Assembly: GCF_963675165.1 (NCBI RefSeq)
Contig: NC_087379.1
Location: 1,864,201 to 1,928,200 of the forward strand
Direction of reading: 5' to 3'
Source of the DNA: Halichondria panicea
Taxonomy: Eukaryota > Porifera > Demospongiae > Suberitida > Halichondriidae
Length of the DNA: 64,000 bases
The notes below the pieces were generated by a model. The model was given only the letters and a program-made list of their open reading frames with translations. It was not told the origin of the DNA and did no database searches. A program made the translations under genes and the position numbers. Position 1 is the stretch's first letter. Each line of letters begins with the position of its first letter. Positions 24,120 through 44,400 of the stretch are shown piece after piece.

Positions 24120-26327
24120 CTAGGAAAATATTTGCACTCTAGTGTTGCCATGATCAGACACATACACCACACCACACTGGTCTACTGCTATGCCATAAGG
24201 TCCATTGAACTGTCCTGGTCGAGATCCAAACGATCCAAACGACTTGAGAAACACTCCCTCACACGTGAACACTGAAACACAATCGTTCCCATACTCCCCC
24301 ACATACACCAAATCATCACTGTCCACACAGATGCTGACAGGATAGTTAAGCTCTTCATTTCCACTGCCTTTCTTCCCAAACTGCCTCAGATAGCCACCAT
24401 TGGCTGTGAAGACTTGCACTTGATGATTAATAAAATCAGCCACATACACACAACCACTACGATCGGATGCAACGTCCCGAGGATCATTAAACTGTCCATT
24501 ACCACTGCCTTTACTGCCGAACTTGCTGGAGAAGGTGAGGTCAGAGTTGAAGATGTGAACACAGTAAGCACCATAATCAACCACATACACCTTCCCATTG
24601 ACACTGTTGACACACACACCAATCGGATCGTTAAACTGTCCAAGACCATCGCTATGACTACCAACTGCTGCTATCACGTCTCCTCCACGTGAGAACTTCA
24701 ACAGTCGATGATTACCATTATCCACCACGAGAATATTGTCATCACCGTCCACTGCCACACCACGAGGTTCCTTCATCTCCCCAACAGCTGTGCCTCGAGT
24801 GTCTAATGTTCGCAGCTCATCTCCTGTGGGGCTAAATATCGAGACAATATCAGCATTCCATTCAGCCACAATTATCTCCCCAGCTTGGTTGAGTGCCACT
24901 CCACGAGTTTTCTTGAGATCATTGATAGTCTTGATAACAGTTCCTAGTTTATCGATCGGAGTCTTGACTGCCACAGGGAATAGACTTCCTACCACCTCCT
25001 CTCCACCCACTCTCACAATCAGCTCGCTGGCCCCGCCCAGTGTCGGCTGGTAGGAGATCTCGTACTCTCCCTTCCCTCGTTCCTTCACAACACATTTTTC
25101 AGCTTTATTAGTTATTTTAGAGACGAGTTCGGCTTCTGGCGGTGCTGAATTTTTGGCGGAGAGGAATCGACAATGTGCATTTATTTTTTGTCCAGCGATT
25201 GCTTTTTGAGGAATATTAACAAAACACAAGGCACCAAATTCTTTGCAATCTTTGACTAGCTGAGCAGAAGGCACAAAACAGGTATTGGTTGTCTCACGAG
25301 GCTCTAGGGTGTTGGGGTCAAAGGTGTCCACCAGCTCTCTCACTTGCTTCACCACACCTTGCTTCATCTTGAGCACGTCTCCTGGAGACCCGGTACGAAT
25401 GCTCTCCCTCACGAAATGCAGGCAGCTGCTACGTTGGGTTTGGAGGATCTCCACCTCCTCTCGCTGAGCAGACAGGCTCTTGAGCTGTTGTTGGGTGTGG
25501 CCTTCCAACTCAGCCATAAGCTCCCCCTCACGAGCATACAGAGCTTGATGGATTTCATCAAATTTCGAGTGGATATTGGTCGCAAGTTTTCCTCCGTGTT
25601 CAACAACTTCAGCGTGTCGTTCATCCAGATTGACCAGAGCTGTGTCGGTGGCCTCTAGCTGTTTCTCAACGGGTCCCAGGGAGTCTAGGATCTCTTTCTT
25701 GTGGCTTTCAAAGGTGTCGGCAATCACATAGTACTTGTGGTCTTTGTGAATTTGGACAGTGCAATGGATACAGATCAACTCCCCACAAGGTTCGCAATAA
25801 AGTTTCATATTTTCGTCGTGTTTGGGGCAGCGAGGGGACATCTTCTTTGGGGAGACCAAGCGAATCAAATCCCCCTCAACTTTTTGGATACTAACAATTT
25901 CGTGATTCTTGAGCTCGTCCCATTCTTTGTGCATATCGGTACACTTCTCGCAGATGAACTTTGTGCATTGTCGGCAAAAGCTGGTAGCTTTACGATTGGT
26001 AACAGAACACTTCTCACAAGCCAATTTCTGAGGCTCTTTAACCTTCTTCAGTGTTTCCTGGATGTCAAAGAGATGGTGTACATTGAAAGCAGCCTGGAGG
26101 CCACTCACACCAGTGGGGGGTAGGGGGGTGGGCCGGCGACACTTGGGGCATTCCAGCTGGCCTTGTCGATTGTGGGCAACTATATCCTCGAGACAATGTT
26201 GACAGTAGACATGGAAACAGGAAAGCAGTCGAGGGTTGGTGTAGGGCTCCAGACAGACTAGGCATGACAGCTGGTCCTCCACTTTGGAGAGAGCTTCTTG
26301 AGCAGCACTCGGCCTCTCAGCCATTGA
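24120..26327 (-). CDS. TRIM-NHL protein, full length (copy 2)
   Basis: 735 residues with the same order as copy 1: RING 21-62, B-box 1 (CEKCSVTNRKATSFCRQC), B-box 2 (RCPKHDENMKLYCEPCGELI), coiled coil, filamin, six NHL repeats. The ATG at 26327 is chosen because MAERPSAAQE is shared; the frame runs further upstream but that part is the 5'UTR intron in all copies. The linker between coiled coil and filamin domain (about 355-395) is unrelated in sequence to that of copies 1 and 3, so this segment diverges fastest. No disabling change seen. Likely a cytoplasmic E3 ligase; target unknown. Confidence 0.92.
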   Translation of the reverse strand, partial: SMAERPSAAQEALSKVEDQLSCLVCLEPYTNPRLLSCFHVYCQHCLEDIVAHNRQGQLECPKCRRPTPLPPTGVSGLQAAFNVHHLFDIQETLKKVKEPQKLACEKCSVTNRKATSFCRQCTKFICEKCTDMHKEWDELKNHEIVSIQKVEGDLIRLVSPKKMSPRCPKHDENMKLYCEPCGELICIHCTVQIHKDHKYYVIADTFESHKKEILDSLGPVEKQLEATDTALVNLDERHAEVVEHGGKLATNIHSKFDEIHQALYAREGELMAELEGHTQQQLKSLSAQREEVEILQTQRSSCLHFVRESIRTGSPGDVLKMKQGVVKQVRELVDTFDPNTLEPRETTNTCFVPSAQLVKDCKEFGALCFVNIPQKAIAGQKINAHCRFLSAKNSAPPEAELVSKITNKAEKCVVKERGKGEYEISYQPTLGGASELIVRVGGEEVVGSLFPVAVKTPIDKLGTVIKTINDLKKTRGVALNQAGEIIVAEWNADIVSIFSPTGDELRTLDTRGTAVGEMKEPRGVAVDGDDNILVVDNGNHRLLKFSRGGDVIAAVGSHSDGLGQFNDPIGVCVNSVNGKVYVVDYGAYCVHIFNSDLTFSSKFGSKGSGNGQFNDPRDVASDRSGCVYVADFINHQVQVFTANGGYLRQFGKKGSGNEELNYPVSICVDSDDLVYVGEYGNDCVSVFTCEGVFLKSFGSFGSRPGQFNGPYGIAVDQCGVVYVSDHGNTRVQIFS

Positions 26328-26763
26328 CACAAAACTGGTGGAGAGAAAAGGATAACAACAGGCTAAAATGTGGCGTGTCAAGCTTTATAATAATAATAGC
26401 AAATAATTCAAGCAACGAAAACTACAAACGAATGTATAGCTATAATTATAGTGTACAATAATTATGTTCACCTTTAGAAAAGTGTTTAGTAGTAGAAAGA
26501 AAAGCTCAAAACTTGGCAAAAGCAGCTATAGACTCACAGCTCTCACAGTGACAGGTCAGGTGATGCATGCACAACAATAGCATTGATCAATAGTAATGAT
26601 TAATGGTCCATACAAACGTACAATAATACTTGTCCTACTTACAATACATACAATACATAATTATAGACACAAGTATTATTGTACATTTGTATGAATATAT
26701 GGAACACTATATAATCATTACTATTGATCAAGTAGTACACCCACTCTCTATTGTTGTCTGTTA

Positions 26764-27175: not shown

Positions 27176-27564
27176 TACCGTATATGCTCGATCAGAGGCC
27201 CCTCTTGTATAAAGGCCGCACTCAAATAGTAGCCTCCCTTGCTAGCAAAATGAGTAGCTGCTCTCAAATAGTAGCCTCAGTGAACTTTGACTCTAGCATT
27301 TCTGCACGTGGCAGCCAAAAAAATTATTACTAGCAGCTAGCTACATGTACGTAGCTATGAGTAGCAGCTTGTTAGTGCTTCACAAAGACTTTCTCATGGC
27401 AGAGTTCAAGTTTATGCAGGTGAAAACAACTTTTGATGACAAACTAAATTATCTGGAGCTAATAAACGCCGCTCTTGAACAGTGGCCCCTCTTGAATTGT
27501 AGCCTCCTCTTCCAGCAAAATGAAACATTTAGTAGCCGCGGCTCCTGATCAAGCATATACGGTA
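27176..27564. mobile_element. MITE with TACCGTATATGCTCGATC ends
   Basis: 389 bp. Left TACCGTATATGCTCGATCAG, right GATCAAGCATATACGGTA. The interior contains GCGGCCTC-type tracts and a stretch that recurs inverted in the copy at 49290-49628. Short open frames inside are not taken as genes. Confidence 0.78.
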
Positions 27565-27642
27565 CATACATACATACATACATCAGGACTCGATTGCCCC
27601 ACCCACTCACACCTTGTGGTCGGGATATTTAGTAACTACTAT

Positions 27643-29397
27643 GCAATACCGGCGTCTTTTCGTTCATATTGTGAGGCAGCTCTAAAAGCAGAAAAATCAG
27701 GCAGCACAGACACTGTTGTCCCCTCGGCTGATATATATAAGTTCAGGCACTGCAAGGCTTATGTGGTCGAAGGGGATGCAGCAAACATGTGCTGCCAAGA
27801 TGTTAGGGATGTCTACCCTACATTCATGGGCTCAAATCTCTTCCTGGCTGACATACCCGTGGTATAATTATGTGCATGCATGCACGTACAGCTATAACAC
27901 ATGTATATGTTATAGCTACGTATATAAACACTCCTGATATTATACTTACATGTTGTTCAACTTCGTGCAGGCGTGGACAACAGAACAAATTCAAAGCCTT
28001 GTGTACACCACAAAACAGCTGAATACAATACCCGAGAAAACTGTGAGCACATTTAATGTTGCATTGATTAGCACCAGTCTCTCAAAAATTGAAGAACTGA
28101 AGAATTGTTTGTTGAAGTGCTACGAACACGTCAGTGCATGTGTGCTACTGGCAGACAGCGTGCACAGGTAAACTATGTTCAATAATAATTCATCGACATT
28201 ATACATTTAACAACTTGTGTCACACGGTGTGTGCAAATCCATCGGTTTTTTGCCTCTGCTATAATTATACACTCAAAATAACAACGCTATAAATATTTCG
28301 CATGACTGTATATAATATTTATCGTGTAACAACTGTATAATAGCGTGAACTTTTTCGAGGTGCTTAATTTTTCCTGATTTCGTGGGTTAGCAATCCTACT
28401 AATTATCTGCTATAACTCGCAAAGATTTAAGGTGTGGCTTCTGGTAAGCACGAACATTGTGCAACGAATTGCTTTTAGAGGCCTTTACAAAATATATAAG
28501 CACCTCGAACATTTCGCACTATTATGTACACATGCAGCCTATTATATCGTACATAACTATAAGCATAATAATTATTATACAGCCCATAACATTATTGTTA
28601 TAGGTGGCTTAGATTCCACTCATCCACTGGGATTTATCCCATCAATTGGATGTGTGGTAGTGGGACACTACTCACTCAGTGGAAAGCTGGAGGAGGACCA
28701 CTTTAACTTCGTTGAGGAAGGGCGGTCCAATTTCTTCCCCTGTATTGATCAATCCACTGCTAAGATTCCGATTTGTGTGCTGACAGGCATTATAAAGAAG
28801 CTGTCTTTTGAAGGGAGCACTGTTATTGATGCCACAAGTGAATCTGGTAATTATTATAGGATGACAGTGCATGCATGCATGATTACTATTTTATGTTTTA
28901 GATACCCAGCATGATTGTGATGTACAAACAACTATGGACCACCTGCCATGATAGTCAGATAGTTTCGGCCTTGTTGGGCCTCGTCAGCATAGCGTAGTTG
29001 TATATATGTAATGAGTACATGTAATAAGATTACATGCATAATATTATATACATGCACATACATGTAATTATCATGTGTATAATAGTGCATGGGAATGTAT
29101 CTATGCATGCACATGTACACAAGTAGAGTTCATGTATATGCATGCAGTTTACCTAAATTTAGGTATTATTATAATGCAACTGTCTCTAAATTTAGGTACA
29201 ACGTACAAAGTTAATGGTACATGTATACCTAAATTTAGGTAGAATTGCATAACACATCGTTTCATGCATGCATGCAGGTAACTGTGCAATCGCCTCACTA
29301 CAAGCAGGAAGAGATGTGGTGGTACTCAAGGCATTGGCCCAAGCAGCACTTGCAAGAAGCCAGCTTGCAGAACTGTCAACAACATAGCTAGCTATGG
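27643..29397 (+). CDS. DNA N4C/N6A methyltransferase-like protein (C-terminal half)
   Basis: Exons 27643-27861, 27971-28167, about 28604-28846, 29278-29397. Exon 1 ends in NLFLADIPV and exon 2 begins AWTTEQIQSLV, the position of the catalytic DPPY motif (IV). The last two exons give STVIDATSESG then NCAIASLQAGRDVVVL, which fits the AdoMet-binding motif I (normally DPFxGSGTT). Motif IV before motif I is the order of beta-class amino-methyltransferases. Both motifs are altered (DIPV for DPPY, SESGN for GSGTT), so activity is doubtful. No start codon belongs to the first exon: the N-terminal half appears to be the ParB-like gene at the other end of the element. The phase between exons 2 and 3 is uncertain. 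Confidence 0.55.
28335..28530. repeat. Decayed MITE in an intron of the MTase-like gene
   Basis: CGTGAACTTTTTCGAGGTGC at the left is inverted at the right as GCACCTCGAACATTTCGCAC. Same inner motif as 36643-36880, without the TACCGTA tips. Confidence 0.55.
29151..29240. promoter_or_regulatory. Palindrome cluster A (ACCTAAATTTAGGT), 3 copies
   Basis: Copies at 29151-29164, 29186-29197 (one arm shorter) and 29227-29240, in the last intron of the MTase-like gene. Perfect 14-bp palindromes at regular short spacing suggest a dimeric DNA-binding protein. Candidate binders are the element's own ParB-like protein or transposase (inference). Confidence 0.6.
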
Positions 29398-29609
29398 ACT
29401 AGACTATACTATACTGTTTCAAGCGTTCCGTTAACTTCTATGTTACTTTGTATATGCGGAGTATATGACTCGATCTTCATCTTATTGAATGTTCATCTGG
29501 TTAAGCAAGTCAATGGGTATCAATAGAAAATAATTGGTGTTTTCTAATCTTTGAGAAATTAACAGGGATATTAAACTGATTATGAACAAAAAACATAGCA
29601 TATTAAAAT

Positions 29610-29680
29610 AAAAGAGAAAAGGAACTTTTAACAGTGAATGTGTTGAACACATTCACTGTTAAAAGTTCCCTTTCTCTTTT
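29610..29680. repeat. 71-bp near-perfect palindrome between convergent genes
   Basis: Arms 29610-29644 and 29646-29680, 35 bp each with one mismatch, separated by a single G at 29645; the half-site begins AACACATTCACTGTTAAAAG. It lies between the 3' ends of the MTase-like and transposase genes. It may be a hairpin, or two terminal inverted repeats joined end to end. Confidence 0.8.
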
Positions 29681-29859
29681 GCAGGATCAGAATAGAATTC
29701 ACTGTTTTATTAGTTAAGTGAAACAAAAATTGTTTGATTTTTTGTCTATTTGTAAATCTTATCTGCATTGTTGTTGTATTCCATGGTTGTGTTAACTTGT
29801 TTTTATTGACTCTGTTTAGCATACTAGATTTGGAGAAGCTAACAGAGATATATTTTGTA

Positions 29860-32800
29860 TCACGATAAACAGAATGAAATATACACAACATTAGGTGTTA
29901 TACTTTGCTTTAGCTCTTGGTATACACTCTTTAAATGTTCTATTGTCTTTTTACGTAGATGACCGGTGGACGTCAACTGGAAATCGTACAAGAGTATTGA
30001 GGATTTCGTGACTGAATCTTCCCACTCAATTCGCTTCCTCTTGTTTTCTGGATCCTGTCTTCTTGCCACTTTCCATTTGCTGTTGTACTTCCCTTCCATC
30101 CAGACAACTCCTACCTCTGAATCTGAGATTGATCGAAGTTGAGCAATCCATGGCTCGATGTTACTGCTTGGACAGCTTCTGACTGCCAGCAACTGATCAA
30201 TCTTGAGACCTGCTAAATCCTGCACCTCCCTAACGTCTGTCCGTGATTGCTTTCGGTAGGCCCCAGTGTACACCTGTATGACATTGAATTTGAAGGTAGA
30301 TACCATGTGAACAAAGCAACCTAAATTTAGGAAGCCTACTCAGTGACCTAAATTTAGGGATGGTATAATTTGTGTGTGTGCATGCACACATTGACCTAAA
30401 TTTAGGGAATTGTGTGTATATACTTATGCATTACGTATATACCTAAGTTGAAGAATTATGCAAAGTGACCTAAATTTAGGTTATTATAAATTTAGGGAAA
30501 GTGCAATAGGTGTGCTGAACTGTCGTATAATTATTGCTTACATTGCACTCTTCATTCTCTGCAGCAAATAGAGCTTGAAGCTGGGTATTCTGAGGCGCAT
30601 CACAGCTCATATCTGCTGATCCTGAGGCTGGGAGTTGGGCCAGTTGACGAACTGTGTAATAATTATTAGAATATAAGTGATATACGTAATGTAAAGTATA
30701 TTATGGTGTTACGTATATAATTCTGATTGAAATGAGAGTTTGCTCACCTTCTTGGAGATGTAGCAAGGGCCAGGGGGTAATTCCAAATTCATCATCAGAG
30801 TAGACAGCGTCCATATCAAATTGCTCCCACCAAATACGAGCATCATCAGAGATCCAAGAATAAAACTTTGGAATATCTATGTGTAGACGTGGCAGGTCTA
30901 TCTTGTTGTCAGACAGGTGAACTCTATTTGGAATGCCACATGGAATCTCCTGCACAGTAAACATTTTGCATGTAAAGTTAAAAGCGTGTAATTTGATCTA
31001 TACGAATGCATGAGCTTAATTTATAGCCATAAGAGGTGTAGGTCGATAAATACATTGTCCATTTTTGTTACAGTAAAATGCACGAATCAGCAAAAATTTA
31101 ACCCTCAAAAATGTTACGCTATATAGTGCAAAATCCAAATTTTTATGAACATAATAGGCACATTAATTTTTTAAAGAATTCAAGAATCGAATGGGTGTAT
31201 TATCAGGGCCTAGAGAGCTGTAGAATATACTTATGGTTCGAACTTCAGCGTCTGTAAAAAACTGCTATTAATTATTATAACAACTGCATACACCCTAACA
31301 CAAAGTGTGTTGCCATACATAATGTAGTATGCATGTGCTTGTACGGTATTTATTATGATCACTGACAAAAAAAACGTTATTACATGCGGACTTGCCAGAA
31401 GTAGTTTCACTGCTACATCAGCATTGCACCAAGCATCACTGCTCCAATGCCGAAAATACATCACAGCTTTCCCATCTTCTAAAAAGAATTTGAAGCAATG
31501 TGGAAGAGAGTGACCATTTAGTCCGTCAATACAAGGTTCCAGCCACGACCTCACATCAGAAATAGTATTGAGTACCTCAACCGTTGGGGTAGGTGTGCTT
31601 GACTGTGTAATCTGCTTTTGGAGATCTGTACAATTATACATGCAACAATAATTATGTAATGTCACAATCAATTCAAAACCAACCTTAATAAATTTATAGG
31701 AAGTATAATTATAGCTATAATTATAATTGACCACCATGCATAATACCTACATACTACATGTATAATTATGAATGCATAATTATTACCTGGTAAAGATTCA
31801 GCTCCTTTTAGAGTGAGCTGCTTAGATATCCTTGAGAAAAGCTGGTCAATGTCCTCATGAGTATGACCAACAGGTAGGAAGTTTACCCGCACCTATTATA
31901 GCACAATGTATACAGTGTCTTATGCATGCATGGGCAACCATGCATTGACAATGTGTGCATGAATGATTATAATTATAGTCATTAGGGCAGGGCAGTGCAT
32001 GCAGTTGCTATGTAATAATTACTATAATGATACCTTAGTGAATATCTTTCGTTCTACCAACAATGCGCAAAACCCCAGGAAGAACTTGTTTTTGTTTTCT
32101 TTTGCTGTATTGTCCAGTTGGATGTTGAGAACTGGTGGGAGATGATCTAGAGCAATCAAGGATTTGAGCAGCACATGAATCGTAACGTTGCAGTCATGAG
32201 GGAATTGCAGCATGTCAATGTAGACGTGAGCTAACTTTCCATGAGGTACCCGGGTGTGTACTAGCACTCCAGTGACGTGTGTTCTGAGAGGAAGCAATCC
32301 CTGCACAGACTTTGGGATCTTTGCGAGGCGAGGAAGATTGGTCTTGTGCTGATCCATGCCATCAATGATGATGGTAACACTGTGTTGTGGATTTGTTCTA
32401 GATTTTTCCCGATGACCATAATACTTCCGCCTTTCTTGCCTGTCACCATAATAATAATAGCAAGATGGAATAAAATTCGTATGCATATAATTGTGAGTCC
32501 CATGCACCCATGCATAATTACGTTTTGGATGTATAATTATGCACATGGGACGAGTAATTTAGGTACATTTTATTGCTGTCTGACTAAAGGCAAAGAATTA
32601 ATTGCGTGGAAATGTAATGTGTACTCGAATACAAGGTAAAGGCTTGCAGAGTCACTTACTGAACAATCTGTAGATGTTGATCATACTCCTCCTTAAATCC
32701 ACACCTCCATCCACTCTTCATTCTTTCCTGGTCAAACTTAGTGCAAATATCACACTTGCTGAAAGCGCTTTGCTGTAAATTGGATAATTATATGGTTATG

Positions 32801-34048
32801 GTTATATAATAATAGTATAATAGAATTAATACTTACACTGGGAATGAGCACCTTCGAAAAATCTTCTTTCCAAAAGCGGTAAAAGGTAGAAACTTTCACA
32901 ACAGCATCTTCTGGGATTCCTCCAGCCATGAGCTCCCTCTTCATCCTGACATACACATCGTACTTAGTGAGGAAATGAGGAAGGTGTACACGATCGATGT
33001 TAGGCATCTGATCTCCAATGAGATTAAAGTATTGCCTCATCCAAGTCTTGGCTTCAGACGTTTTTGAGGCCTCGGCTCTCACGTGGGGTTTTCTAGTGGC
33101 TTTGTGAATGCCATTTGAGAATTATTCGGTTACTGTTTTGAATCTCTTGTTTGAAATTCCAAGAATATTCAAGAAGGCGTTCTTGCATACATGCTTTCCT
33201 TCGAGCATCATCGTAAGCTTGCTTGAGCTCGATGATTGTCTGCTTGATGAGGGAATAAATATCAATGAGGTATCAAACAGAAACTGTTTCTGGTCAGCTC
33301 TTCTCTTTTTGTTAAAGATACCTCTAACTTTCTGTACTTCCTGCTGAGTAAATGCAGCAATACACACCCTTCCACAACATTGAAACCGATGAGAGCTTAC
33401 AGGAGATTCACTCTCATATTCCAAAGGATCTTCTGTCCTTCGCTTCTTGACAGGTGTTGAATTCAAAGGAGCTTCAAATTGGGGATCAAAATCCATGAGT
33501 TCGAGTAGTTCGGAGTCAGCATCACAGTTAGTGAAGCTGGAGGACACAAACAACTCTTGGCTGCTGTCTACAACAGGAGATAAGAGCAGAGAGTTTTGCG
33601 TGTTGGTAGTCATGCTTGTCTCTGGAGACACAATAAGAAGGGAGTCTTGCGCTATGCTTGTTTCGAGTTCTGGTGACACAAAGAGGAGGGAGTCTTGCGC
33701 TATGCTTGTTTCGAGTTCTGGAGACACAATGAGGAGAGAGTCTTGCGCTATGCTTGTTTCGAGTTCTGGAGACACAATAAGGAGAGAGTCCTGCGCTATG
33801 CTTGTTTCGAGTTCTAGTTCTGGAGACACAATGAGGAGAGAGTCTTGCACTATGCTTGTTTCGAGTTCTGGAGACACAATGAGGAGAGAGTCTTGCTTGT
33901 TGTTAGCTATGCTAGCAGGAGTGCATGCACCCCTGATGCTAGTTTGTGAGTCTTGCTTACTGCTTGTCCCTGGTGACACAATAAGGAGAGAGTCTTGGCT
34001 ATAACTGCCATCATAGAGAGGACATGAATCATTCATCATTGCATGCAT
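29860..34048 (-). CDS. DUF7869-type transposase-like protein, multi-exon
   Basis: Exons read on the minus strand: 34048-32837, 32772-32660, 32439-32034, 31892-31786, 31625-31396 (GC donor), 30949-30748, 30651-30542, 30273-29860; about 930 residues. The N-terminus has about ten imperfect SLLIVSPELETSIAQD repeats, then CCGRVCIAAFTQQEV and KTVTE (DNA-binding-like part), then CDICTKFDQERMKSGW. The core has IIIDGMDQHKTNLP, LDNTAKENKNKFF and FLPVGHTHEDIDQLFS, whose spaced acidic residues fit an RNase-H-fold DDE/D nuclease. The C-terminus has VGVVWMEGKYNSKWKV. One in-frame TAA follows KTVTE in exon 1; otherwise the exons are open. The first ATG is at 34048. Family named from memory of the GHTHEDIDQ signature. 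Confidence 0.72.
30319..30497. promoter_or_regulatory. Palindrome cluster B (ACCTAAATTTAGGK), 5 copies
   Basis: 30319-30332, 30346-30359, 30394-30407, 30468-30481 and a partial at 30487-30497, plus a degenerate ACCTAAG at 30441. Three are preceded by GTG or TTG. The cluster lies in the last intron of the transposase gene, so clusters A and B stand on either side of the palindrome at 29610-29680. Confidence 0.6.
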
Positions 34049-34229
34049 GCAAGCCACAAATCATGCGCACTGAACTATCACACCTGCGGGTTCACGCATG
34101 GCTACTTTATTGCGCATGCGCCGATGGACTAGCACTATTCAGCTGCATTTAAAACTGCACTGCACTGCGCTGCACTTAGTAGTACGTGCTTAGCTACTGT
34201 AGCTCCCTAGTTTACAGCATAGGTGAAGA
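34049..34229. promoter_or_regulatory. Divergent promoter with NRF1-like site
   Basis: 181 bp separate the first ATG of the transposase (minus) and of the ParB-like gene (plus). It contains TTGCGCATGCGCCG near 34112-34125, a strong match to the NRF1 consensus, and a CTGCACTGCACTGCGCTGCA run. No TATA box obvious. A shared bidirectional promoter is inferred. Confidence 0.55.
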
Positions 34230-37200
34230 ATGCCTGCAACCAAGAGGTGGCACTTTGAGTTTCTCGTGGGTGGAGTCAGTGGTATCACTGTGTACAAGAA
34301 TGGTGCAAGGATTAAGAGCTACAAACTCCCAAATCGCCCAGTCTTGGAAAGTGTATATTCAATAGGTACTCCTTCTACTAGAAAGACTTGTGATAAGGTT
34401 AAAGAATACCTAGATCAAGCCATTGAGGTAAGCTATAATGTATAACAATGTTGTAATTTTAGTAATAAGCACCACAGATATAATCCTGGTTTTTATTGGT
34501 CATACAGGTCACATTTAAATGCAAGACTACTGTGCTCCTGAACCGGAAGGAGTTTGAATGGAATAAATCAGCATTTTGTCGACTGTTGAGGCTGTCTCCT
34601 GGGGCGAGAGCAGTCGACTTCATTCAAGTCTTCAACCAACTGACAAAGGTATCATAATAATGTGTCTTGCCCATTTCTGCGTGATTGCTAAGGTGTACAA
34701 CAGTTGATACAGTCCCTGTTTTCACATAGGAATAATGGGGGGGGGGGGGTCATATAGATCCTTGTGATAGGGAAAATGTAATAATTGATGTACAATGCGT
34801 TTTTCATGTACATCACTTGTTTACATACATTGTACATAAAATTAACATAATAATAACTCTATATAATTATAAAGTTTACTTAATAATTATAGTATAGAGT
34901 TCATATATGATCGCTAACCCACCAATATATAACCGTTTAAATTGCTGTCTGCATGCATGCTTATAATAATTATTATATACCCATGCATGCATCATGCGTG
35001 GGAAAACAGTTGAACATACAATCAGTGCATGGCAATCAATGTTTGTACGTGTGAATTCTATATCTTGACATCATGCACTGTATACAAACCTCGTGTTTAT
35101 AATCTACACTAGCTAACCTGATAAGGTATTAAAATTGTTACAGCAGCTATATGTATGTACATATTCTTACTTTATCTACAGTTCAATTCTGACCGAGGCT
35201 TCTTAGTTCCTGTAAGCCCCCTGCCAACCAGTTCGGAGTTGCTAACTGAGGAGGCGTTGTCTGATGGTGGTGACTCTGAGGATGACCACCCGCTGTCTTC
35301 ATTGACAAGTACCCAAAGCATAGACGGCAGCCACCAACTTGGAGAAAAGAGAAGTCAGCAGGAGGAGGAAGTATCGAGAAAGAGGATGAAGCACAAAGAT
35401 ACTATGGACGATGCGATCTTCACCAAGAAGATTGGTAAGCTGCATGTGTGCCAACTGTATCACACATGCAATTTCAACCTTGCTTGCGCATGCGCACCAA
35501 GGCACAATTGAACTTCTCTCACTTGATATTGTATATGCATGCATGCAGGAACTATTGATCTCCAGCTGAGAAACCTCTCAGAACCCAAAACACAATGCTG
35601 TTTAAGAACGGTTGACACTGTATTTGTGGAGGAACTAGTGAAGAAGTTCACTAAGAATCCCTCTGCTCCAGGTGTACCTCCGATTGCTGTTCTGTGCATT
35701 TCTGTTGAGAGCATAGATGTGTTTGACACCAACAGAGTGGACGCCTATAAGTACGAGCTGCTTGGAGGCCAGCATACAGCCTTGGCAAGAAGGATAGTAG
35801 CAGCCAAGTCTCCAGACAATACGTTGCTACAGACTGTCCTTGCTGAGGTGTATGTTGGTCTGACAGACGATGAAGCACTTAGGCTCGCCTCTCGCCACAA
35901 CACAAATAGTCATTTTATCCACAAGATGACACATCGGGACTATGTAAGTTAAAGAATTCAAAATTCCTCTAAGAAATAAGCTGTGTTCATTCATTTTGCT
36001 ATGATTATAGCTTGAGGCCTGCCGATCGAAACTGTTTTCAATGTGCGGTAAGGCTCCTGAGGAGGAAACCCCAAAAGACTCGGTGGAATGGAAGGATGTG
36101 TGCAAGCGATGCATTTTACCTCAGGTATTATACTATTTCGTCTGTTAATATACATTGTACTTTACAGAACTGATCCATGCATGCTCATAATATTTGTCCA
36201 AATCTTAGGATATGGGCCGCTGCACAATGGAGAATATCTTTAAGCAGGCAAGCTTTACTAAGGAAGTCTGGGCATTGGCCATATCGGTCATGAACTTGTA
36301 CGAGGAGGGGGAGCTGAAAGACCAGACCCTCTCAACAAAATCTCTGACTACAAAGCCCGAGTTTAAGCAGCAAAATTTTAGCCCAATCCAGTGCCTTCCT
36401 GATGAGTTCAAGCTGGAAATGTTATCAAAGGTATACAAGCGCTTGAGAAGATTTTCTATAGACAAAATAATATTGTTACGTGTAAAGAAGCACATGCAGA
36501 GGTATAATATAGGAGCCTGACAGCGTAATCTATTTATATCTGCATTGAAGTTGTTATGAATTAATAGTAACAGTTTTTTAGATCATGTTTGCCTGCAATC
36601 TGATAGGCTATAGAGGAAGTGTTCTATCCAACTTAGTATACTTACCGTATAGCGCGAAATTTTCGAGGCACTTATATTTCGTGGATTGGCCTCTAAAAAC
36701 CATTTCGTTGCACAATGTTCGCGGAATGACTGCTTACGGGAAGCCACGCCTTTAAATATTTGCACGATAGCAGGTAATTCTAATTAAAGAACAATTTTCG
36801 TGGACTTAATTTTCGTATAGAATTCTAACCCACGAAATCCGCGAAAATTAAGCCCCTCGAACATTTCGCGCTATACGGTATTTACTTCACTTATGTAGCA
36901 AAGATTAGATAAGAATAGTGCATGATTGACTAAATTGAGAATCATGGTTGCTATATTATGCATGATCTATAATCAGGGCTAGTAGAACCCTCTCTACACG
37001 TTCGGGATACTACAACCATGCAGCTCTAAATATTAATTATTAATTTTCCAGGTTTCAAGCAGTGAGCTAAGCCTTGCCGAATTAAAGGAAGAAGCTACCA
37101 GCTACAGATCAAGAAAGTCTCTGCAAAGGGCTTTCTGCAAGTAAATTAACAATCACATGCATGCATTTGTATAGACACTGTTTAGGAAGTTTCTAGAAGC

Positions 37201-37467
37201 CCAAAGGGCTGGTAATTGTAGTATCCCGAACACGGTGAGGGTTCTACTAGCCCTGACTCGTGAGGACTTCTAAATCATGTGGAAACTTCCTTTTTTTGAT
37301 CTAAAGTGTATTATTTCTATAATCACATTTTTTAAGTCAAGTATAATTCCATCCCAGGATAACTACTTCCAGTACGTGGTGCGAGGCAAAACGTAGATTT
37401 CCTGCCTTCACTACCCCAGAGCGTCTGAGGACATTCCATCAGATATGTTTAACCAATACCGGCGTCT
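34230..37467 (+). CDS. ParB/Srx-like domain protein (N-terminal half of a ParB-MTase?)
   Basis: Exons 34230-34427, 34508-34648, 35182-35434, 35549-35943, 36011-36124, 36209-36430, 37052-37140 and probably 37358-37467; the first six keep phase exactly. Exon 1 starts MPATKRWHFEFLVGG (no family recognised). Exon 3 is acidic with a basic KRSQQEEEVSRKRMKHK tail, likely nuclear targeting. Exon 4 has the ParB pattern: FVEELVKKF, PPIAVL, YELLGGQHTALARR (the GG-H box), TVLAEVYVGLTDDEALRLAS and RHN near the end, as in ParB N-terminal/Srx-fold domains. ParB domains joined to DNA methylases are known from bacteria and phages. Here the methylase half lies 8-10 kb upstream, at the other end of the element. 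If exon 7 is last, a stop follows directly at 37142. Confidence 0.6.
36643..36880. mobile_element. MITE with TACCGTATAGCGCGAAA ends
   Basis: 238 bp, inverted termini TACCGTATAGCGCGAAATTT and CATTTCGCGCTATACGGTA with inner TTCGAGG/CCTCGAA. Inserted in the intron between exons 6 and 7 of the ParB-like gene. Confidence 0.78.
36976..37257. repeat. Inverted repeat around exon 7 of the ParB-like gene
   Basis: GGGCTAGTAGAACCCT near 36978 and CGTTCGGGATACTACAA near 37005 are inverted as TTGTAGTATCCCGAACACGG and AGGGTTCTACTAGCCCTGA at 37217-37257. The right arm abuts a scrap of the 59383-59497 MITE (AGACACTGTTT near 37173). Confidence 0.6.
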
Positions 37468-38115
37468 ACACTACTCCAACAAAGACTATTACAACGAGGA
37501 TACCCCAAAAAACTTATCAACAAAACAATGAAACTATAACGTACAAAGATAGACAACAATACCTTTCACCAACACCACCCCAAAACTCTACGCGACCACC
37601 AATCTTAAAATGTCTACCTCCACCAGTATTTAGTCTGTTAAAATCCATGATTTTACAAAACTTCTAAATACGTAGCGTATCCACGATTTATTACTTTAGG
37701 CCACAAAACTCTACGCAATGAATTAGTGGTAGCACGAATCAACCACACAGACGAGCAAATTATAGATATTATTCTTATGCTAGGTAATGAAGGAGCTTGT
37801 CAACCACACACGACTGTGCAGGTATGATGCCTAACCTCGTCAATACTAAAACAACAATCCAAACATGCAAGCATCTGAGATGTGTAACCTGCAAGCACTG
37901 CAACACGGGTAATTCATTTAAAAGCACATCGACAGGTCGCCAATACACCATTAGAAACTCATTCACCTGTAACTCAAACAACATTATCTACCTAATAACC
38001 TGCACTAAATGTAAGAAGCAATACGGAGGATACACCCGGACAACACTCAAGGACACAATAAACCAACACCAAACGAACATTAAAAAAATTCACCGAGCAA
38101 TACTTATTAAGACAT
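37468..38115 (+). mobile_element. Penelope-like retroelement remnant (GIY-YIG end)
   Basis: Plus-strand remnant carrying the C-terminal GIY-YIG endonuclease pattern of Penelope-like elements: CKHLRCVTCKHCNTG, then NIIYLITCTKCKKQYGGYTR. Upstream is the RGYP-type linker of the same family. Truncated at the 5' side and broken, with several breaks. It lies between the ParB-bearing element and the NUP210 first-exon copy. Confidence 0.7.
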
Positions 38116-38204
38116 GTTAGAATTATTTTTAGGCTTAAATCTTTGCATTCAAACTATCGACTGTAACTCAGGGTCACCGCTTGCACTAGTATCCCCCTCC
38201 CCTA

Positions 38205-42589: not shown

Positions 42590-44400
<1,811 letters not shown>

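Follow-up and report, generated by a model that had tools for sequence, protein, structure and literature searches.

The 21.5-kb DNA transposon Sola1-1_Ec32 of the brown alga Ectocarpus carries, on the strand opposite its transposase gene, a gene for a 1104-amino-acid protein that joins a ParB-like part to a DNA methyltransferase; the predicted product of the enzyme is N4-methylcytosine or N6-methyladenine, and green and red algae are cited as sources of similar transposon-borne proteins (PMC12477816). We describe here a similar arrangement in an animal, the sponge Halichondria panicea. The window, as we call the whole 64,000-nucleotide stretch analysed, comprises positions 1,864,201-1,928,200 of the forward strand of NC_087379.1 (C3:1864201-1928200 of the 131-Mb, 39-contig genome searched). 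It contains a large DNA transposon in which a DUF7869 transposase gene faces a gene for a ParB-methyltransferase-like protein. The likeness to Sola1-1_Ec32 extends to the opposite strands of the two genes, but the sponge element is smaller (9.8 kb), its protein shorter (759-761 amino acids), and its methyltransferase part degenerate.

Other mobile elements have also acquired DNA methyltransferases. Retrotransposons with cytosine methyltransferases are one case, differing from the present one as retroelements with C5-cytosine enzymes (PMC5890265, as far as its accessible text goes), and methyltransferases and Fanzor proteins occur in further transposons (PMC3627910, in the sections available). 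Phages supply a further parallel: in five ParB-methyltransferases (Gordonia RedWattleHog gene 206, Curtobacterium Elener gene 1, Arthrobacter Shambre1 gene 1, and two more), a ParB box precedes a methyltransferase whose motif I lies on the C-terminal side, an order to which the transposon protein can be aligned. DPPY is present in the phage proteins and their motif I contains GSG; the transposon protein shows no DPPY where that place can be read, and has an N-terminal extension and a longer spacer. The literature searched (partial listings, with subscription papers mostly outside the search) yielded no animal transposon with a ParB-methyltransferase and no mention of DUF7869; a term search of the accessible part of PMC12730594 did not find ParB.

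A DUF7869 transposon in a sponge genome

Positions 27644-37467 of the window are one copy of a DNA transposon of about 9.8 kb, probably a cut-and-paste element. The class assignment follows from the inverted repeats at the ends of its complete copies and from the target duplications, 4 bp long, around most of them. These copies are dispersed, and their target duplications are constant in length. The sequence-only reading had drawn the block at 27628-37467, and comparison with other copies places its ends within 16 bases of those limits. The inverted repeat begins AACACATTCACTGTTAAAAGTTCC, runs for about 35 bp, and differs by one mismatch between the two ends. In the window the canonical left end (29646-29680, plus strand) and the canonical right end (29610-29644, minus strand) lie side by side inside the element, for reasons given below. 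A 22-bp core of the repeat, with up to two mismatches allowed, has at least 24 matches in the genome, and its reversed control has none (genome-wide counts throughout are lower bounds, scoring being limited to the best candidates).

Three copies closely resemble that of the window: c2 (C8:5.63M), c3 (C8:3.31M, 9,805 bp), and c4 (C1:9.67M), each 98% identical to it in the ParB-like exon. The whole block is present in c2 and c3 at 98-99% identity by blastn, in permuted order; c4 lacks a middle part and breaks off in 200 N short of its right end. A more divergent copy at C1:8.305M, mostly 81-86% identical in its longer pieces, is arranged like c2 and c3. Also divergent is an element of 8,247 bp at C1:8.26M, whose terminal repeat begins AACACTCTCTC. 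Perfect 4-bp duplications flank four of the five complete copies read: AAGA (c3), ATAG (C11:2.90M), ATAT (C12:5.02M), and TTAA (C1:8.26M). About 0.005 per copy would be expected by chance. To judge by the difference of about 1% among copies, the element appears to have been mobile recently.

Sola1 transposons make 4-bp target duplications. The duplications found here fit that superfamily, but their length is common to others as well and so is not specific.

The transposase gene occupies 29900-34039 on the minus strand, its start codon being assumed. Its exons lie at about 32839-34039, 32660-32772, 32034-32439, 31787-31892, and 31392-31625, with edges accurate to within 1-2 bases; additional exons toward the 3' end, reaching about 29.9 kb, are read by eye only. 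The window exons, joined by hand, match Pfam family PF25273 at E 6.1e-68 (228.6 bits against a cut-off of 26), which bears out the DUF7869 identification made from the letters alone. Every motif quoted in that identification and for the neighbouring gene is present in the sequence: IIIDGMDQHK and LDNTAKENKN in the exon at 32034-32439, and GHTHEDIDQ in that at 31787-31892. Residues D26, D29, D109, and E114, candidates for the acidic catalytic positions of an RNase H-fold DDE transposase, are invariant in an alignment of three lineages. An AlphaFold model of a transposase exon, made without relatives, has low confidence (pLDDT 41), and a PDB profile search with the exon returned four cell-wall or surface proteins (E 0.4-0.53), taken as chance matches. 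The window gene is broken by a premature stop, which is absent from c2, c3, C11, and C12, the four other copies compared that contain that stretch.

The first transposase exon also contains a coding minisatellite of 48 bp (QDSLLIVSPELETSIA; 5.6 copies, 33621-33896), and one breakpoint of the c4 deletion falls inside it. Two copies of a repeat resembling a miniature inverted-repeat transposable element, about 75% alike by blastn, lie in opposite orientation within the element (28401-28522 and 36643-36880). On contig C13, between 5.50M and 5.98M, seven terminal-repeat matches (1-2 mismatches) stand on one strand; both that were read run into different sequence. An Rfam scan of 27.0-38.2 kb gave no match.

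One gene for ParB-like and methyltransferase-like parts

The second gene stands head-to-head with that of the transposase. The sequence-only reading treated its ParB-like and methyltransferase-like parts as two proteins, but they are halves of one gene: two separate genes are rejected because a single open gene of 11 exons spans both parts in c2 and c3. The halves stand apart in the window because that copy is circularly permuted. The introns proposed from sequence are real, as two other copies splice to open frames of 761 and 759 amino acids with GT-AG at all internal junctions. The encoded protein consists of an N-terminal domain, a ParB-like domain, and a degenerate methyltransferase-like domain.

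All exons of the window gene are on the plus strand. Exons 1-7 lie at 34230-34427, 34508-34648, 35182-35434, 35549-35943, 36011-36124, 36209-36430, and 37052-37140; the fourth of these is the ParB core and holds LLGGQHTALARR, GLTDDEALRLAS, and RHN. Exon 8, continuous in c2 and c3, is cut by the permutation into a first part at 37358-37467 and a remainder at 27644-27861 that ends in a degenerate motif IV (ADIPV). Exons 9-11 follow at 27971-28167, 28604-28846 (with the degenerate motif I, VIDATSESG), and 29278-29387, so that the DIPV and VIDATSESG noted earlier both fall within 27.8-28.9 kb. Relative to c2 and c3, the window gene is frameshifted at the end of exon 9. With the transposase stop, this leaves both genes broken, and the window copy is not a working set; other copies are intact at both stretches.

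In nine of nine exon comparisons, the methyltransferase exons included, divergence is lowest at second codon positions and highest at third ones. This pattern argues for purifying selection. Most synonymous distances are beyond calculation (NG86 gives none in 9/9 and in 18/21 pairs); a ratio of nonsynonymous to synonymous divergence is not claimed for most.

Relatives of the protein were sought by profile comparison. A profile of six transposon members, five of which hhalign kept, aligns with the five phage ParB-methyltransferases at motif I (P 0.0078, VIDATSESG against the phage VLDLFCGSG, toward the C-terminus) and at the ParB box (P 0.053), and the two matches follow each other as in the phage proteins. 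With a template of ten phage ParB proteins, including those five, the corresponding values are 0.0085 and 0.0082. The best and second-best scores were reached in none of 200 column shuffles per template. Over motif I, the methyltransferase part also weakly matches PHROG 18293 (methyltransferase; E 0.00076) and NF010253 (DNA methyltransferase; E 0.0094), and two of seven ParB-exon members match DUF6551 (best E 0.0046). A chance origin of the ParB pattern is disfavoured by the shuffles and by the seven aligned members, which are 36-62% identical to the first and share 19 invariant columns, the GG.H box among them. The evidence that the fused gene would descend from a ParB-beta-class methyltransferase is good but unproven.

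A scan of viral_contigs with a 170-residue ParB query produced 14 pattern matches, none confirmed. In tblastn searches of 50,697 phage records, the ParB part matched two records of one phage (annotated ParB-like; E 8), and the methyltransferase part six records (E 3-9), one a DNA adenine methylase; none of these matches is significant.

The methyltransferase half appears to have lost its catalytic motif. Wherever the place of motif IV can be read, DPPY is not seen: the sequence is ADIPV in the window, and elsewhere ANV, ITS, or TGLP (each at a possible exon edge) or LDTPE, with no aromatic residue (in the C6 and C14 loci the place was not located). Motif I retains its D, and in the C6/C4 lineage GSG as well (IIDATTGSG). 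The retained residues and the weak family matches would fit an enzyme that methylates the DNA of the element carrying it, or did so until recently, an activity that has been suggested in the algal case, and the Ectocarpus protein is itself a predicted methyltransferase of that type (PMC12477816, in the portion available); set against the motif IV readings, such activity is quite improbable. The proposal that the element is marked by methylation is likewise not a likely reading, because DPPY is absent where it could be read.

Pairing of the two genes across loci

Searches with the ParB-like exon and with the transposase exon each gave 19 genome matches, which merge in each case into 16 loci. 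A ParB match stands head-to-head with the transposase, within 12 kb, at nine of the 16 transposase loci: the window, C8:3.31M, C8:5.63M, C1:9.67M, C1:8.266M, C7:3.99M, C14:4.83M, C1:8.312M, and C1:8.426M. Two of the pairs were compared with c3: identity to it is 56% (C14) and 59% (C1:8.26M) in the transposase exon, and 43% and 47%, respectively, in the ParB exon. PF25273 has at least 57 matches in the genome, and some, such as a 683-residue frame at C2:4.68M, are on contigs with no ParB match, so the pairing is a property of part of the DUF7869 family.

A further lineage of ParB-methyltransferase-like genes is found at C12:4440120 and C1:15655501. Its N-terminal domain is similar, and the motif IV place reads LDTPE. 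No DUF7869 match was found near the C12:4.44M gene on that contig.

Palindromes inside both ends

The window contains six exact copies of the palindrome CCTAAATTTAGG and a seventh with one mismatch, all inside the element (0.08 expected; a number reached in none of 100 shuffles). On the canonical right side it is at 29152, 29228, and, with the mismatch, 29185 (span 29152-29239); on the canonical left side it is at 30320, 30347, 30395, and 30469 (span 30320-30480). The c3 palindromes lie 680-830 bp from one end of the element and 425-500 bp from the other. The sequence ACCTAAATTTAGGT has 23 sites in the genome, of which 22 belong to copies or fragments of this transposon family, as assigned by nearness to an end repeat or to the genes, and one is elsewhere (C10:6.56M); the reversed control has one.

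Other lineages have palindromes of their own. At the C14 locus, TACAAATTTGTA is present 14 times, divided four and ten between the two sides of the gene pair; inverted repeats beyond these palindromes were not found there, and the element ends are thus not located. The C1:8.26M element carries the near-palindrome ACCAAGGACCCACGTGTGGGTCCTTGGT, six exact copies and one degenerate near one end, with diverged relatives near the other. Three lineages have such clusters on both sides, and the clustered sequence differs from one lineage to the next. No repeated palindrome of this kind was seen at the C6 and C4 loci.

ParB reads parS, and TnpA reads subterminal repeats of En/Spm. We infer that the ParB-like protein reads the palindromes, and consider it probable, on balance, that the element is a transposon with an accessory, end-binding ParB-methyltransferase-like protein and that the window copy was re-inserted from a circle. 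The DUF7869 transposase would move the element between the inverted repeats of about 35 bp, making the 4-bp duplications. The product of the second gene would most likely be an accessory factor that binds the ends: its ParB-like and N-terminal parts would recognize the palindromes that are specific to each lineage and lie 0.4-0.8 kb in from both ends, and their binding would assist end pairing or regulate the divergent promoter. The methyltransferase half would be kept as a binding or scaffold domain.

Observations that count against this reading

Several findings pull the other way, beginning with the ancestry of the protein. The sequence homology of both domains is weak. The score of the ParB match to the five-protein template, taken alone (23.6), is reached as a best score in three of 200 shuffles; column shuffling disrupts local sequence patterns and so is a lenient control; and the hhalign probabilities are about 5% or less. 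With E values as high as 1 allowed, neither the ParB-like nor the methyltransferase-like part matches any Pfam family, and PF02195 has no match in the genome, while it is detected in 11 of 14 controls. Sequence searches of the PDB gave one chance match or none. The AlphaFold model of the ParB exon, made without relatives, has low confidence (pLDDT 54) and leaves the ParB/Srx fold without confirmation.

Others concern the element. The c2 copy lacks a clean target duplication. Seven of the 16 transposase loci have no ParB partner (C11:2.91M, C12:5.02M, C1:7.05M, C5:5.15M, C5:5.55M, C1:8.278M, and C16:2.22M), and a transposase partner is missing at seven of the 16 ParB loci (C6:5.85M, C4:2.47M, C1:8.373M, C1:8.433M, C12:4.44M, C1:15.66M, and C1:6.17M). 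C11:2.91M and C12:5.02M share one deletion, equivalent to window 34819-36318 (exons 3-5 and part of exon 6 of the ParB gene). These two copies, both without ParB exons, differ in their target duplications, which would make the ParB part dispensable in cis: an element lacking it would have moved, either in cis or with help in trans, if gene conversion did not spread the deletion.

Nor do the palindromes point to the ParB-like protein over the transposase. Transposon-encoded proteins that bind subterminal repeats are known, and the transposase itself might use the palindromes, in which case the ParB-methyltransferase gene would be a passenger that serves some other function, for instance anti-silencing. 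The copies that moved, or were converted, after losing their ParB exons speak for such a passenger; the gene has nevertheless stayed with the transposase across lineages under a selected codon pattern, and we regard the passenger explanation as rather unlikely.

A circularly permuted copy in a Penelope-like element

The window copy (27644-37467) is circularly permuted: compared with c2 and c3 by blastn, its canonical order is 29646-37467 followed by 27644-29644. In those copies the segment 27644-29653 comes after 37467 rather than before 29648. The terminal repeats of the window copy are joined internally at 29644/29646, with one base (29645) between them. The 14-bp element sequence CAATACCGGCGTCT, single and internal in c2, c3, and C1:8.305M, is present at both edges of the window copy (27644-27657 and 37454-37467, both plus strand), so that the edges overlap. 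Four bases that adjoin these 14 bp in c2 and c3 are missing from the window beside the right edge.

The flanks come from a Penelope-like element. The left flank TAGTAACTACTATG (27630-27643) is a Penelope-like remnant whose empty site was read in six other copies, five of them exact; the right flank (37468-38120, plus strand) is part of the Penelope-like (GIY-YIG) repeat that was the insertion target, with 11 other matches listed. The Pfam GIY-YIG match (E 0.0043) is below the family cut-off. Five of the six empty sites read TAGTAACTACTATGCAACAAT[CT]ACAC, and the sixth is longer by two bases; in the window, the left side reads TAGTAACTACTATGCAA and the right side ACACTACTCC. From this comparison, one Penelope-like site seems to have been opened with a loss of about five bases and to have received the end-joined element in a little over one full turn. 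An excised, end-joined circle captured at a break in the Penelope-like element would give such a copy, and the joined ends together with the permutation suggest that a circle formed.

DNA transposons can insert in tandem beside an existing end, and the window copy could instead be two head-to-tail copies, each truncated. Two truncations would then need to coincide at a single 14-bp sequence within 9.8 kb. The flanks rejoin as a normal Penelope-like site short of about five bases, which also speaks against two copies; this origin is accordingly very doubtful, and capture of a circle is the reading we retain.

Next to the insertion is a short repeat (27500-27577) with 46 other matches listed, the best 40 of 448 candidates having been scored. 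Elsewhere in the window are a 754-residue open frame (24120-26384, minus strand) that by eye resembles a RING/B-box/NHL (TRIM-type) protein, and a mismatch-free (TG)86 tract at 42979-43150.

Implications

The sequence-only reading proposed a new lineage of large DNA transposons that had captured a prokaryotic module. A DUF7869 transposon with a prokaryotic-looking module stands; the module, however, is one fused gene, and a similar gene had already been published in Ectocarpus. A bolder possibility is a eukaryotic ParB-parS-like system at transposon ends, in which an enzyme-dead protein co-evolving with its palindromes would hold or partition the excised circle, the window copy being its re-inserted product. 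We think this unlikely.

Together, these results place a known algal gene type, the transposon-borne ParB-methyltransferase, in a lineage with a DUF7869 transposase in an animal genome. They also provide functional handles on such proteins: palindromes specific to each lineage; an enzyme half that appears decayed despite a selected codon pattern; copies without ParB exons that have target duplications of their own; and a circle-like copy.

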